34,200 nucleotides of DNA from Pseudomonadota bacterium (GTDB lineage: Bacteria; Pseudomonadota; Gammaproteobacteria; Burkholderiales; Burkholderiaceae_C), in assembly GCA_018261815.1 (NCBI GenBank), contig JAGTRL010000010.1, forward strand, positions 1 through 34,200, read 5' to 3'. The notes beneath the pieces are model-generated. The model was not told the origin of the DNA. It saw only the letters and a program-made list of their open reading frames with translations, and made no database searches. The position numbers were made by a program, and so were the translations under genes. Positions within the stretch are counted from its first letter, which is position 1. Every line of letters begins with the position of its first letter. Shown here in pieces: positions 15,757 to 31,856 of the stretch.

Positions 15757-16047
15757 ATGGACCACAACCTGATTCCGAACAACTGGCTCGGCTACCTGGC
15801 CGCGTCGCTGACCACGCTGTCCTTCGTGCCGCAGGCTCTGCTGACGCTGCGCACGCGCGAGGTGCATGGCATCTCAGCCACCATGTACAGCGTGTTCACC
15901 GTCGGCGTGGCGCTTTGGCTCGCCTACGGCTGGCGGCTGGGCGAATGGCCGATCATCATCGCCAACGCCCTGACGCTGATGCTGGCGGCGACGATCCTGG
16001 TGACCAAGCTGGTCGTCGAGTGGCTCGCGCGGGCCGTGCCGCGTTAG
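15757..16047 (+). CDS. SemiSWEET-type (PQ-loop, MtN3-like) transporter
   Basis: A 96-residue membrane protein with three hydrophobic helices (about residues 10-29, 41-58, 65-88), the length of a SemiSWEET half-transporter, which works as a dimer to move sugars or small solutes down a gradient. The first helix carries the PQ motif (SFVPQ); TREVHGISATMY is the usual link to helix 2. Substrate cannot be told. It starts 6 bp after dacB. Its TAG stop overlaps the TAA stop of the convergent lipoprotein gene by four bases (TTAG), so neither gene has room for a separate 3' region. Confidence 0.92.
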   Translation: MDHNLIPNNWLGYLAASLTTLSFVPQALLTLRTREVHGISATMYSVFTVGVALWLAYGWRLGEWPIIIANALTLMLAATILVTKLVVEWLARAVPR

Positions 16048-17048
16048 CCACACCCGAAGGGGTTGCCCTGAGCGCGTTGCCGGGCGAAGCTGCCCAGGTT
16101 GGCATGGGCCTCCCAGCCGATCCAACGGTCGCTGGCCCAAAGCCAGGTCAGCGCATTGCCGCCAGTCACCAGATCGGCTGCGACATTGTTGCAGTTCGGC
16201 AGGTCCACCGCGCACACCCCCACGGTCCAGTTGGTAATGCCAAAGTCCCCAGGGTTGCGGACGGCAGCATTGATTAACGCATCCAGCTCGACCAGGCCCC
16301 AGCGCGAGCCATCGTTCGGAATATTGACGCGCAGCGCGGTGTTGAAGGCGGTACTGAACTCGTTCAGTACGCTTTGCACGTTCTTGCCGGGATGGAGGGC
16401 ATCCTGCAGCAGCCCATAGGGCGTCTGGTTGATCAGCGGGATCGTCGAGACGAGGATGTTCGAACCGTTGTTCGCGGTCAGCTCGGTGATCGCCCGGCCC
16501 AGCCGGGCACCGCGCGCGGACAGTTCGTTGGTGACGGCCTCGGCCGTGCTCGACGTCGGATTGGCAAGGTACTGCGTCTCGAACAGATCGATGACGTCGT
16601 TGGTGCCGATCAAGACCGACATCAGGTCGTTGCAGCCGACGCTGCCGTGCACCGCCCGGGCCGTGGCCAGTTGCGTCACGAAGTCGGCGGACATGGCGCC
16701 GGGTTTTGCATAGATGTAGCCGTTCGGCGTCAGTGCCGACGGATTGCATTCCTCGAACACAAAGCCGAAGGCATTGGCGACGACTTGAGTCCACAATCGC
16801 GACGGCTGGCTGGAGGTGTTGGTGTTGCAGGTCGCGGCGCCGTCACTGTCGACCGCATTCACCGTGTACTTCAACCCATTCGGCCCCGGCCTGGTCAGCA
16901 CGCTCATCTCGTCGCCGAACACCAGGTAGCGTGTCGGCTCGAAAGGCGTGATCTGCTCGGTGCCTCCGCCGCAGGCCGCCAGCAGCAGCACCAGCCCTGC
17001 GGCCACGGCGCACGAGGCGCGCCGCGTCCAATTGCCCATCGATTTCAT
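16044..17048 (-). CDS. SGNH/GDSL-hydrolase-like lipoprotein, probably catalytically altered
   Basis: A 334-residue predicted lipoprotein (LVLLLAAC, Cys26) with SGNH-fold traces. Block I is YLVFGDEMSVLT (residues 41-52) where GDSL enzymes have GDS; block III is IGTND (147-151, GxND intact); block V seems to be ASDRWIGWEAHANLGS (305-320). There the usual DxxHP reads D307-RW-I310-G, so both the nucleophilic Ser and the catalytic His appear replaced. It could be an inactive or differently working relative. KYTVN after block I and several Cys (74, 101, 139, 279, 286, 333) suggest a secreted, possibly disulfide-bonded protein. Start at 17048: GGAG 5 nt upstream; a second ATG lies one codon earlier. 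Monocistronic, 38 bp from the tsaC stop. Confidence 0.85.
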   Translation of the reverse strand: MKSMGNWTRRASCAVAAGLVLLLAACGGGTEQITPFEPTRYLVFGDEMSVLTRPGPNGLKYTVNAVDSDGAATCNTNTSSQPSRLWTQVVANAFGFVFEECNPSALTPNGYIYAKPGAMSADFVTQLATARAVHGSVGCNDLMSVLIGTNDVIDLFETQYLANPTSSTAEAVTNELSARGARLGRAITELTANNGSNILVSTIPLINQTPYGLLQDALHPGKNVQSVLNEFSTAFNTALRVNIPNDGSRWGLVELDALINAAVRNPGDFGITNWTVGVCAVDLPNCNNVAADLVTGGNALTWLWASDRWIGWEAHANLGSFARQRAQGNPFGCG

Positions 17049-17086: not shown

Positions 17087-18073
17087 TCATTCGGCCGCGG
17101 CCCGCATCAAGCGATCGCGCACGCCTTCCCAGTCGGGCGTGTCGGGCGGTTGCTCCACCCAGATGAGCCGGACGCCCCGGGCGTCGAACTCGCGCAATGC
17201 GGCAAACAGCTCGTGCGCGGCAGCGACCGGGTGGTCGGGCATCCGCCGATGCTCGACGCCCCGCCCTGCGACCAGTCGGCTGCGCGAATATACCGCCAGC
17301 TTCAGGCCGGACGCCTGCGGTCCCAGCACCTCGAGTGCATCGCGCAACTGCTGCGCGTTCATCAGGCGCAGCCGGGCGGCTGGCGCATAGTGCGACTTCA
17401 GGCTGCCGCTGGCGCGCGGCGACTGGTCGTCGCGCTCGCGCAGCGGCGTGCCCAGCACCGCCTCGAGTTGCGCGCGCTGCAGCAACCCGGGGCGCAGCAG
17501 CGCCGGCGGCAGCGCCGTGCAATCCACGATGGCCGATTCGATGCCGCCCGGGCATTCGCCGCCGTCCAGCACTTTCAGCTCCGCCCCGAATTCCTGCACC
17601 ACGTGGGCTGCACTGGTGGCGCTGACCCGGCCGAAACGGTTGGCACTGGGCGCCGCCACCCCCGGCACGCCCAGGCGCAGCGCCTCGGCCAGCAGCGAGC
17701 GCGCCACCGGATGTGCCGGCACGCGCAGGCCGATGCTGCCCTGCCCACCGGCCGCCGCCTGGGCGAGGCTCGGCTCGCGCGGCACGATCAGCGTCAGCGG
17801 CCCGGGCCAGAAGGTCTGGGCCAGGGCCTCGGCCGCCGCCGGCCATTGCGATGCAAAGCGCCGAGCCTGCTGCGCGTCGGCGGCATGCACGATCAGCGGG
17901 TGCGCCGCTGGCCGGCTTTTGGCCGCGTAGATGCGCTGCACCGCGGCATCGTCGTCGGCACGCGCACCCAGGCCGTACACCGTCTCGGTCGGGAAGGCGA
18001 GCAGTTCGCCGGCCGCCAGCGCCTCGGCGGCGGCGCTCATGGCCGTCGGGTCGGCAGCGTCGAGCAGCGGCAT
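17087..18073 (-). CDS. tsaC: L-threonylcarbamoyladenylate synthase, Sua5 type
   Basis: Makes threonylcarbamoyl-AMP from threonine, bicarbonate and ATP, the first step of t6A tRNA modification. At 328 residues this is the long Sua5 form. The YrdC domain (about 1-200) has PTETVYGLG, KSRPAAHPL, GPLTLIVPR, IGLRVPAHP and APSANRFGRVS. It is followed by the linker GSLKSHYAPAARL and the C-terminal Sua5 domain with its Rossmann-like fold (LIWVEQPP near the end). It starts 23 bp after purK on the same strand and probably shares the purE-purK transcript, a common beta-proteobacterial order. Pathway partner tsaB is 3 kb away in another operon. Confidence 0.95.
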   Translation of the reverse strand: MPLLDAADPTAMSAAAEALAAGELLAFPTETVYGLGARADDDAAVQRIYAAKSRPAAHPLIVHAADAQQARRFASQWPAAAEALAQTFWPGPLTLIVPREPSLAQAAAGGQGSIGLRVPAHPVARSLLAEALRLGVPGVAAPSANRFGRVSATSAAHVVQEFGAELKVLDGGECPGGIESAIVDCTALPPALLRPGLLQRAQLEAVLGTPLRERDDQSPRASGSLKSHYAPAARLRLMNAQQLRDALEVLGPQASGLKLAVYSRSRLVAGRGVEHRRMPDHPVAAAHELFAALREFDARGVRLIWVEQPPDTPDWEGVRDRLMRAAAE

Positions 18074-18096: not shown

Positions 18097-19281
18097 TCAG
18101 AGCGCAGGCAGCGCAAGCCGCGACGCGGCTTCGCGCGCCACGCGCCGCGCCTCGGCGGGTTCAGCCGCGGTCACGGTCAGATGCCCCATCTTGCGACCGC
18201 GCCGCGCTTCGGCCTTGCCGTACAGGTGCAGGTGCACGCCAGGCAGCGCCAGCACCCGGTCCCACGGCGGTACGCTTGCGGCGTCGCTTCCGGCACCGAA
18301 CCACAGGTCGCCCAGCAGATTCAGCATCACCGCAGCCGAATGCTGGCGCGGCGCCACCAGCGGCAGGCCGGCCAGGCAGCGCGCCTGCAATTCGAACTGC
18401 GACACGTCGCAGGCATCGAGGCTGTAGTGGCCCGAGTTGTGCGGCCGCGGCGCCATCTCGTTGGCCACCAGCGAGCCATCATCGAGCACGAAAAACTCGA
18501 CGCAGAGCACGCCGACATAGTCCATCGATGCCGCCAGGCGCGCCGCCTGCTCCACCGCCTGCGCGGCCAGCGGCGGTGGCAGGTCGGGCGCGGGCGCTTC
18601 GGTCACCGCCAGGATGCCGTCGCGGTGCAGGTTCTGCTGCACCGGCAGGTGCACCCACTGGCCGTCGGCGGCACGCGCCACGATCACGCTGATCTCGCGC
18701 TGCAGCGGCAGGCGCTTTTCGAGCACGCAGGGCACGCGTTGCAGCGCTGTCCAGGCCGTCGCCAGGTCGGCGCGCGAGGCCACGCTGCGCTGGCCCTTGC
18801 CGTCGTAGCCCAGCTGCGTGGTCTTCAGGATGCCCGGGAACAAGCCGTCGTCCAGCGACTGCAGGTCGGCCTCGCCGGCCAGCACCGCATACGGCGCGCA
18901 GGGCACGCCGCAGCGCGCGAAATGAGCCTTTTCGGCGGCGCGCTGCTGGCAGATGGCCACCGCCTCGGCACGCGGCGCCACCGGCCGTTGCGTTGCCAGC
19001 CAGGCGAGTGCCGGCGCCGGCACGTTCTCGAATTCGGTGGTGAGGGCCACGCAGTGCCGCGCCAGTTGCGCCAGGCCGGCCGGATCGTCGTAGGCGCTGC
19101 GCACGTGCAGGTGCGAGACGCTGCCGGCCGGGCTGGCCGGGTCGGGGTCGAGCACTGCGGTGCGGTAGCCCAGAGTCTGCGCCGCATGCACGAACATGCG
19201 CGCCAGCTGGCCGCCGCCCATCACGCCGAGCATGGCCGGCGCGCCATCGGGCCCGGCCGATGCGGGCAGGTGCACGGGCAT
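18097..19281 (-). CDS. purK: 5-(carboxyamino)imidazole ribonucleotide synthase
   Basis: ATP-grasp enzyme converting AIR and bicarbonate to N5-CAIR in purine synthesis. The 394-residue protein shows LGVMGGGQLARM near the N-terminus, TTEFENVPA, ILKTTQLGYDGKGQ (ATP-grasp lysine and Gly loop), EKRLPLQREISVI, VEFFVLDDGSLVANEMAPRPHNSGHYS (cited in two parts: VEFFVLDD and EMAPRPHNSGHY) and LYGKAEARRGRKMGH. The ATG shares a base with the purE TGA (TGATG), indicating coupling with PurE, which takes its product. An N-terminal lead of about 15 residues before LGVMG is slightly longer than usual. Confidence 0.96.
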   Translation of the reverse strand: MPVHLPASAGPDGAPAMLGVMGGGQLARMFVHAAQTLGYRTAVLDPDPASPAGSVSHLHVRSAYDDPAGLAQLARHCVALTTEFENVPAPALAWLATQRPVAPRAEAVAICQQRAAEKAHFARCGVPCAPYAVLAGEADLQSLDDGLFPGILKTTQLGYDGKGQRSVASRADLATAWTALQRVPCVLEKRLPLQREISVIVARAADGQWVHLPVQQNLHRDGILAVTEAPAPDLPPPLAAQAVEQAARLAASMDYVGVLCVEFFVLDDGSLVANEMAPRPHNSGHYSLDACDVSQFELQARCLAGLPLVAPRQHSAAVMLNLLGDLWFGAGSDAASVPPWDRVLALPGVHLHLYGKAEARRGRKMGHLTVTAAEPAEARRVAREAASRLALPAL

Positions 19282-19790
19282 CACCCGGGGCCGCGACCGA
19301 GCTCGGCGCTCATCGCGCGAGCGGCTTCGGTCTGCCGCTCGCGCCAGGCGAGCAGCTTGCCGCGCAGCGCCGCATCGTGGCTCGCCAGCATGGCCACGGC
19401 AAACAGCGCCGCATTGGCCGCGCCGGCCGCACCGATCGCGAAGGTGGCCACCGGCACGCCCTTGGGCATCTGCACGATGGAATGCAGCGAGTCGACACCC
19501 TGCAGGTGGCGGCTGGCCACCGGCACGCCGAGCACCGGCACGATGGTCTTGGCGGCGAGCATGCCGGGCAGGTGCGCGGCGCCGCCGGCGCCGGCGATGA
19601 TGGCCTGCAGGCCGCGGTCGGCCGCCGATTCGGCATAGGCGAACATGTCGTCGGGCATGCGGTGGGCACTGACCACGCGCGCCTCGTGCGGCACGCCGAA
19701 CTCGGCGAGAATCTGCGTCGCGTGCTGCAGGGTTTCCCAGTCGCTGGACGAGCCCATCAGCACACCGACCACAGGGGCTGCGCTTGTCAC
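19281..19790 (-). CDS. purE: N5-carboxyaminoimidazole ribonucleotide mutase
   Basis: Interconverts N5-CAIR and CAIR in purine synthesis; forms octamers. The 169-residue protein shows [14 protein letters not shown], the [12 protein letters not shown] motif with the catalytic His, [33 protein letters not shown] and [12 protein letters not shown]. The start is GTG at 19790 with CGGAG 6 nt upstream; no ATG fits. Only 44 bp separate it from the divergent phospholipase-D-like gene. In many Burkholderiales purC lies just upstream of purE; here it is not present in the window. Confidence 0.96.
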
Positions 19791-30758: not shown

Positions 30759-31856
30759 TTGCTGGACGCCGACGAGTTCGCCGCCTGGTTCCGGCTGCTG
30801 GAAACACCGGGGCTGGGCAGGGAGGGCGCGCGGCGGCTGCTGGCCAGCTTCGGCTCGGCGGCGCAGGTGTTGCAGGCCCCGAAGTCGGCCTGGCAGCAGG
30901 TTGTCGGCCCCCAGCTGGCGCAGACCCTGGACACCGAGCCCGAGGCACTTCAGCCCCGCTTGCGCGCCGCCCGGGAGTGGCTGGCCGGCGGCGAGATGCG
31001 CCAGGTGCTGAGCATCGGCGATCGCGACTACCCGGCCGTGCTGCTGCAGACGCCCGACCCGCCGCTGCTGCTGTATGTGCAAGGCCAAATCGGGCTGCTC
31101 AACCGGCGCAGCTTGGCCATCGTGGGCAGCCGCAACGCCAGCGCGCAGGGCGTGGACAACGCCCGGTCCTTCGGCGCGCACCTCAGCCGACAGGGTTGGA
31201 CCATCGTCTCCGGCTTGGCCTTCGGCATCGACGGCGCTGCCCACGAGGGCGGGCTGGCCGGTCCGGGCAGCACCGTGGCGGTGGTCGGCACCGGGCTGGA
31301 CCGGGTATATCCCGCACGGCACCGCACACTGGCTCACCGCATTGCCACCGCCGGCGTGCTCGTCAGCGAGTACGCGCCGGGCACACCGCCGCTGGCACAG
31401 AACTTCCCGCAGCGCAACCGCATCATCGCCGGCCTGGCACGCGGCACGCTGGTGGTGGAGGCGGCGCTGAAGTCGGGCTCGCTGATCACCGCACGCCAGG
31501 CCGCCGACTACGGACGCGAGGTGTTCGCGGTGCCGGGCTCGATCCATTCGCCGCTGTCTCGCGGCTGCCACGCGCTCATCCGCCAGGGTGCCAAGCTGGT
31601 GGAAAGCGCCGAAGACATCCTCGAGGAACTGCAGGGTCTGTCCGCCGAGGTTTCAGCCGACCCGGCGCCCGCGCCGAGCGGGCGCGACGATCCGGTGCTG
31701 CAAGCACTGGGCCATGACCCGGCGACGCTGGACGCGTTGTGCGATCGCACCGGCTGGAGCGCGCAGGAGCTGAGCGCGCGGCTGCTGGAGCTGGAGCTCG
31801 AGGACCGGGTGGCCCGCCTGCCGGGCGGCCTGTATCAGCGCCGCAGCCACGTCTGA
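30759..31856 (+). CDS. dprA: DNA-processing protein DprA (recombination mediator)
   Basis: Loads RecA on incoming single-stranded DNA in natural transformation. The 365-residue protein has an N-terminal SAM-like domain (EFAAWFRLLETPGLGREGARRLLASFG) and the Rossmann-type core (IVGSRNAS, GWTIVSGLAFGIDGAAHEG, VVGTGLDRVYPARH, LVSEYAPGTPP, FPQRNRIIAGLA, SGSLITARQAADYGREVFAVPGSI in two parts). The C-terminal DprA winged helix (DPVLQALGHDPATLDALCDRTG) is also present. The start must be TTG at 30759, because the frame is closed by the LysM stop two codons earlier and later starts would cut the N-terminal domain. No properly spaced Shine-Dalgarno is seen (AGGG ends 1 nt before TTG), so reinitiation after the LysM stop is likely. 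Confidence 0.93.
   Translation: MLDADEFAAWFRLLETPGLGREGARRLLASFGSAAQVLQAPKSAWQQVVGPQLAQTLDTEPEALQPRLRAAREWLAGGEMRQVLSIGDRDYPAVLLQTPDPPLLLYVQGQIGLLNRRSLAIVGSRNASAQGVDNARSFGAHLSRQGWTIVSGLAFGIDGAAHEGGLAGPGSTVAVVGTGLDRVYPARHRTLAHRIATAGVLVSEYAPGTPPLAQNFPQRNRIIAGLARGTLVVEAALKSGSLITARQAADYGREVFAVPGSIHSPLSRGCHALIRQGAKLVESAEDILEELQGLSAEVSADPAPAPSGRDDPVLQALGHDPATLDALCDRTGWSAQELSARLLELELEDRVARLPGGLYQRRSHV

Follow-up and report, generated by a model that had tools for sequence, protein, structure and literature searches.

Genomic context

The window, by which is meant the whole stretch of DNA that was analysed, comprises 34,200 nucleotides of contig JAGTRL010000010.1 from the assembly of a Pseudomonadota bacterium (GCA_018261815.1). 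The gene considered here lies between tsaC/sua5 and a convergent PQ-loop gene, in the following arrangement.

15757–16047, plus strand: PQ-loop/SemiSWEET-like gene, convergent, with a 4-base tail-to-tail overlap with the 3' end of the lipoprotein gene
16044–17048, minus strand: CDS of a predicted non-catalytic SGNH lipoprotein, an ORF without interruption (334 aa plus stop)
17087–18073, minus strand: tsaC/sua5 (PF01300, PF03481), same strand, 38 bases upstream of the lipoprotein gene
18097–19230, minus strand: purK (PurK_C, ATP-grasp), start approximate
19281–19790, minus strand: purE (AIRC, PF00731)

A GGAG motif lies 5 bases 5' of the lipoprotein ATG, and a second in-frame ATG immediately precedes that start codon. 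A promoter scan returned no candidates, no terminator-like site is listed at the 3' end of the gene, and the window gave no match to Rfam at gathering scores. A tRNA-Ala (TGC) gene is located at nt 31659–31733 on the minus strand.

The lipoprotein has an orthologue in 32 of the 36 congeners searched. For close comparison, a near set of 97 aligned rows was used, consisting of the window, 29 congener loci and 67 loci from named genomes (Rubrivivax, which belongs to the Sphaerotilaceae, Ideonella, Aquabacterium, Leptothrix, Paucibacter and less closely named assemblies), the sources of which overlap in species. The order purE-purK-tsaC-lipoprotein is repeated in this set, many loci having the convergent PQ-loop gene and/or dacB downstream, and some relatives have a canonical SGNH gene between the lipoprotein and PQ-loop genes. 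One contig carrying the family gene was deposited as a Bordetella parapertussis MAG (L077), a label that may denote a misclassified bin.

Protein features and fold

The protein consists of a signal helix, the lipobox LAAC-G, the motifs GDEMS and GTND, and a C-terminal WASDRWIGWEAH. Its lipobox and two cysteine pairs are placed as follows.

16971–16982, minus strand: lipobox L23-A-A-C26, with Gly at +2
16746–16829, minus strand: C74 and C101, probable acidic-type disulfide
16191–16214, minus strand: C279 and C286, probable disulfide common to canonical relatives

A signal peptide with a lipobox cysteine (LAAC at 23–26) identifies the product as a bacterial lipoprotein, and the cysteine is found in 97/97 near rows and in 117/117 rows of the wider family set described below; the motif as such would imply a lipid anchor only, and not the surface position given in the initial annotation. 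The signal region appears in the predicted model as a low-confidence helix (residues 8–24). In E. coli, lipoprotein sorting follows the +2 rule, and the Gly after the lipobox Cys suggests that the protein is probably located on the inner face of the outer membrane.

The window protein scores 29.6 bits with Pfam Lipase_GDSL (PF00657; cut-off 23.6), and a model predicted from 66 aligned sequences (mean pLDDT 90.7, pTM 0.87) has the three-layer SGNH fold. Structure comparison gave a Z-score of 25.0 to the Photobacterium J15 GDSL esterase (5xtu; 242 residues, 3.5 Å, 18% identity), and scores of 24.4 to PlaA (8a26), 24.4 to ChoE (6uqx) and 24.1 to EstA (3kvn). As Pfam score, model and Z-scores agree, the SGNH homology is sound, and together with the lipobox they bear out the SGNH-fold lipoprotein proposed in the initial annotation. 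Searching solved structures by sequence was unproductive (best E-value 0.028, to an unrelated protein), and the window protein stayed below the cut-off of every NCBIfam model (PlaC, 15.1 bits where 700 are required; PlaA, 14.3 where 450 are required). The NCBIfam esterase EstP is not among the models listed for the window protein; it matches 5 of the 18 members of alignment A4 (E ≤ 0.01). PF00657 matches 55 of the 66 members of alignment A2 (E ≤ 0.01).

Beyond the lipobox Cys, the mature part carries six cysteines (C74, C101, C139, C279, C286 and C333), as the initial annotation had counted, but the disulfides it attached to them are plausible for only four, since C139 and C333 are not conserved. 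C74, C101, C279 and C286 are each conserved in 97/97 near rows; C333 occurs in the window copy only among these rows, and C139 and C333 in 0/117 family rows. The protein terminus lies six residues past the last model helix (312–328), with no C-terminal beta-barrel. P330 and F331 of an NPF end are present in all 97 near rows, and the window copy extends beyond them with GCG, including the extra Cys.

Catalytic motifs

The mechanism described in the available parts of PMC9487903 and PMC10779480 employs a Ser nucleophile and the His and Asp of block V, with a Gly and an Asn as oxyanion donors. The register of these positions was taken from MAFFT multiple alignments and from a hhalign profile-profile alignment against canonical SGNH lipoproteins.

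16902–16916, minus strand: block I, G45-D46-E47-M48-S49 replacing GDSLS, with Glu47 at the nucleophile position
16695–16712, minus strand: block II, Y113-A-K-P-G117-A (canonical YAxGGA), G117 retained
16596–16607, minus strand: block III, G148-T-N150-D151, retained
16104–16139, minus strand: block V, W304-A-S306-D-R-W309-I-G-W-E-A-H315, catalytic Asp replaced by Ser306 and His by Trp309
16389–16403, minus strand: decoy D216-A-L-H-P220, a literal DxxHP in a variable stretch

MAFFT and hhalign agree in pairing block V with the canonical F-A-D-S-V-H-P-T-P-G-G-H. The window copy has therefore lost the catalytic Ser, His and Asp, and of the residues needed by an active enzyme only the two oxyanion donors, the block II Gly (Gly117) and the block III Asn (Asn150), are present. 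The ORF and the alignments thus uphold the earlier observations that GDEMS stands in place of GDS with GTND retained, and that both Ser and His are missing (Glu47 and Trp309 occupy their positions), to which the loss of Asp is now added. Two details required correction: the Glu is residue 47 and not 46, and, while there is indeed no DxxHP at the canonical place, the D-R-W-I-G register given for block V was one residue off, so that the His position is held by Trp309 rather than Ile310.

An ordinary esterase the active site of which has been misplaced by alignment would find its residues either in Ser49 and His315, the pair that the initial annotation had named as the case that would overturn its reading, or in the DALHP string at 216–220, all of which do occur in the window protein. 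Both members of the putative dyad, however, align with residues that have no catalytic part in canonical proteins, and neither is constant within the family. Ser49 aligns with the latter Ser of GDSLS (Ser 21, Thr 4 and Asn 1 in 26 canonical rows) and is replaced in 25/117 family rows; at residue 315, these 117 rows have mostly His (53) or Gln (51). Alignment thus gave no sign of a canonical pair here. DALHP was likewise rejected as a moved block V, as D216 with H219 is found in only 1/97 near rows, and an ordinary esterase is scarcely credible. The string itself, which among the 97 rows is confined to the window copy, might mislead motif scans.

Conservation among near relatives

An alignment of close homologues had been proposed as the check on conservation of the Glu, and in the near set position 47 is acidic in 97/97 rows (Glu 75, Asp 22) and never Ser. 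The substitution of GDSLS by GDEMS goes beyond chance. D46 and D151 are invariant, and Asn150 is present in 79/97 rows; residue 309 is most often Arg (46), His (24) or Trp (13). Dereplication of sequences 90% or more alike left 66 rows, in which position 47 is again always acidic (Glu 51, Asp 15), Gly117 is found in 58/66, Asn150 in 54/66, and both in 49/66. In 13/66 of these rows, Gly117 and Asn150 are combined with Asp306 and His309.

Two forms of the gene across the family

An 18-row profile was searched in 399 genomes from 141 genera of the family to which the window genome belongs (E ≤ 1e-25). Matches were obtained in 280/399 genomes and 102/141 genera, which are upper bounds, as in two of the matched genera the hit proved canonical on reading (L242, L243). 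In L242, a canonical GDSLSD protein beside tsaC occupies the place of the pseudoenzyme. At this threshold 119/399 family genomes gave no match, so that some lineages either lack the gene or have a fast-diverging version of it. In the order sample, matches from beyond the family (E ≤ 1e-28) came from 14 genomes, and in all 14 the protein is canonical; several appear to be of EstA-like autotransporter length. The best of these E-values was 8.2e-41, compared with 1.3e-91 or better for the listed family orthologues.

The family set comprised 117 rows of at least 150 bits from 100 genera, some genera being represented several times, and was compared with 26 aligned rows below 150 bits (L108–L130, L242–L244), all canonical. 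Since tsaC is found in the fetched stretch of 113/117 family rows, although the search used a protein profile, these rows can be taken as orthologous. Ser, Asn and His occur together in 0/117 family rows and in 26/26 canonical rows. Position 47 is Glu in 63, Asp in 2, Gly in 29, Ala in 18 and Ser in 5 of the 117, and the tsaC-linked gene accordingly exists in two forms, an acidic type (GD[E/D]xS, 65 rows) and a small type (GD[G/A], 47 rows). Gly117 and Asn150 are kept jointly in 47/65 acidic rows and in 0/47 small rows, where Gly117 survives in 6/47 and Asn150 in none, the latter being replaced by Ser (33) or Ala (9). Residue 309 is Tyr in 41/47 small-type rows, and His309 is still present in 14/65 of the acidic type. 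The cysteine pairs follow the same division: C74 and C101 are both present in 64/65 acidic, 0/47 small and 0/26 canonical rows, which points to a type-specific disulfide, and C279 with C286 in 64/65, 47/47 and 26/26, respectively. Small-type C-termini are RW or RF in five aligned proteins.

The five Ser rows are heterogeneous. In L184 (Asn to Asp) and L205 (Asn to Gln), the Ser, Gly, Asp and His are retained and only the Asn is altered, so that, judged from their residues, these two proteins may be active, which counts against the pseudoenzyme reading; the others (L177, L182, L235) lack more residues.

The pattern at position 47 bears on whether the acidic type could be a new SGNH enzyme class, with Glu47 or Asp47 acting as nucleophile or general acid/base in a retained oxyanion pocket. 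Such an enzyme would parallel, within the SGNH fold, the Ser-to-Asp nucleophile switch in alpha/beta hydrolases, exemplified by the haloalkane dehalogenases. The invariably acidic residue of the near set speaks for it, the more so as only Asp occurs among the one-step codon neighbours of Glu, and so do the dereplicated rows that keep both oxyanion donors or, in addition, Asp306 and His309. Against it, the candidate partner residues vary in the near set (309 = R/H/W/N/L/Q, 306 = D/S/G/T, 150 = N/H/W, 315 = H/Q), and position 47 is Gly or Ala in orthologues from the same locus, so that whatever the two forms do in common can be done without the carboxylate. New chemistry is thus improbable, and the new catalytic set suggested earlier (the Glu or Ser49) appears disfavoured on these residue patterns, given also that Ser49 varies.

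Phylogeny and selection

A tree was computed from 89 proteins, with the motif columns removed: 27 acidic and 24 small-type sequences (both random samples), the five Ser rows, and 33 canonical proteins (21 neighbouring and 12 other). In this unrooted tree, the bootstrap of which is not fully settled, the 33 canonical proteins are split from the 56 others with support of 100/100, and the split was present in 200/200 bootstrap trees checked. The acidic clade, which includes one Ser row, received 100/98, and the small clade, which includes the other four, 99/86. The separation from canonical relatives supports the subfamily status that had been suggested for the protein.

Both forms are under purifying selection. 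Values of dN/dS (NG86) ranged from 0.07 to 0.54 and were below 1 in 25/25 close pairs (23 acidic, 2 small), although the values for L133/L134 and L050/L051 are identical and so probably represent the same species pair. Decay of a single copy was rejected on the strength of these values and of conservation across the 97 and 117 rows.

The adjacent canonical SGNH gene

Of 66 named loci with enough flank, 23 have a same-strand canonical SGNH lipoprotein gene (GDS, GxND, DxxHPT) immediately downstream; the count becomes 24 if L072, in which the frame begins exactly at the boundary, is included. A neighbour of about 390–400 aa (GDSLSD, GxND, DxxHPT) is seen in L032, L037, L043, L065, L066, L070 and others, and a second kind (MGDSLADVG) directly downstream in L042, L061, L072 and L088. 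Within the fetched stretch, a canonical SGNH gene accompanies 13/65 acidic and 23/47 small rows, in the latter mostly on the opposite strand. These neighbours resemble the pseudoenzyme in their lipoprotein signal, fold family and, in many relatives, locus; they differ in keeping GDS, GxND and DxxHP, in branching as canonical proteins and in being absent from many genomes. The 21 neighbours in the tree fall with the canonical proteins, in one clade (92/83) that also contains four other canonical rows. As they do not group with the pseudoenzyme, a recent tandem duplication was rejected as their origin, though an ancient one may be involved, the tree being unrooted.

Such proximity raises the possibility that the pseudoenzyme regulates, chaperones or pairs with the canonical esterase often encoded beside it. 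In the genus, close relatives of the neighbour (E ≤ 1e-60) were found in 15/33 genomes with the pseudoenzyme, the window genome being counted among the 33, and in 2/4 without it; of the 15 congeners that carry both genes, 11 have the two near each other on a single contig. The pair is therefore recurrent but not obligate, and an obligate partnership was rejected for want of any association. The remaining 18/33 genomes have the pseudoenzyme without a close canonical relative, though some of them are incomplete, and the window genome has none at E ≤ 1e-60. It does carry two other PF00657 genes above cut-off elsewhere, including a canonical one (L099) for which the neighbour profile gives 200 bits. 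While the recurrent adjacency and the canonical gene L099 favour a partner function, the independent occurrence of the two genes makes it rather unlikely.

Predicted role

The best explanation, to which we would give a probability of about 70%, is that the protein is a catalytically silent SGNH/GDSL-fold lipoprotein, a predicted pseudoenzyme retained for binding or scaffolding and not for ester hydrolysis. After the corrections given above, the pseudo-esterase of the initial annotation appears to be the best reading of the sequence. The catalytic residues have been lost across orthologues that remain conserved, and a disarmed protein kept at one chromosomal spot across a large family probably has a non-enzymatic job. 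Besides the two possibly active Ser rows and the family genomes that gave no match, a further observation sits poorly with the pseudoenzyme: residue 47 is more tightly restricted to acidic side chains than a purely structural function would require.

The two forms may have disarmed the site in different ways. In the acidic type, the carboxylate of Glu47 or Asp47 would occupy the old nucleophile site, held by the block II Gly and block III Asn, and the pocket would thereby be locked or ligand-holding, with Glu47 perhaps capping a vestigial oxyanion hole. A carboxylate in the oxyanion hole is suggested by the way in which Gly117 and Asn150 persist together where residue 47 is acidic and are jointly lost where it is Gly or Ala. 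In the small type, both nucleophile and oxyanion donors are gone, as if the site had been given up. With two such different pocket states, a task common to both would have to involve a different surface or employ the pocket for binding; an acyl chain, a glycan or a protein are candidate ligands.

Relation to known SGNH proteins

The protein shares with the canonical EstA, PlaA, ChoE and Photobacterium J15 esterases (PF00657) its fold (Z 24–25), block order and the C279–C286 pair, but differs from them in lacking Ser, His, Asp and a beta-barrel, in its lipid anchor and in forming a separate clade. Blocks II–V also vary in real enzymes of the SASA, AlgX/AlgJ and PatB1/DHHW SGNH families, which, according to the available part of PMC9487903, retain the Ser and His that the window protein has lost. 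GDSL sequences without catalytic residues can be pseudoenzymes (PMC10779480, available in part). Searches of open-licence papers listed no description of a comparable pseudoenzyme family among bacterial SGNH proteins, and the best precedent, by analogy, seems to be the plant protein ERMO3/MVP1/GOLD36 (At1g54030), at least as it is presented in the accessible portions of PMC4757993 and PMC3498303. Like the small type, this Arabidopsis protein has Gly for the block I Ser, and it shows no lipase activity; it has another cellular function and interacts with components of the PYK10 complex. In contrast to the window protein, it is carried to the vacuole, has no acidic replacement and, in the same portions, is not described as lipid-anchored. 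It is one of three dead sequences among 116 A. thaliana GDSL sequences, and an essential motif is missing in 171 of 820 Pfam-annotated plant GDSL sequences (both figures from the available part of PMC4757993).

A disarmed hydrolase that 100 genera maintain at a single locus, with two solutions for its pocket, amounts to a natural experiment in the conversion of a lipase fold to an apparently non-enzymatic envelope protein. As most of these sequences receive the Pfam GDSL lipase label while none of the family rows has the full residue set, that label is doubtful as a statement of function in many genomes.
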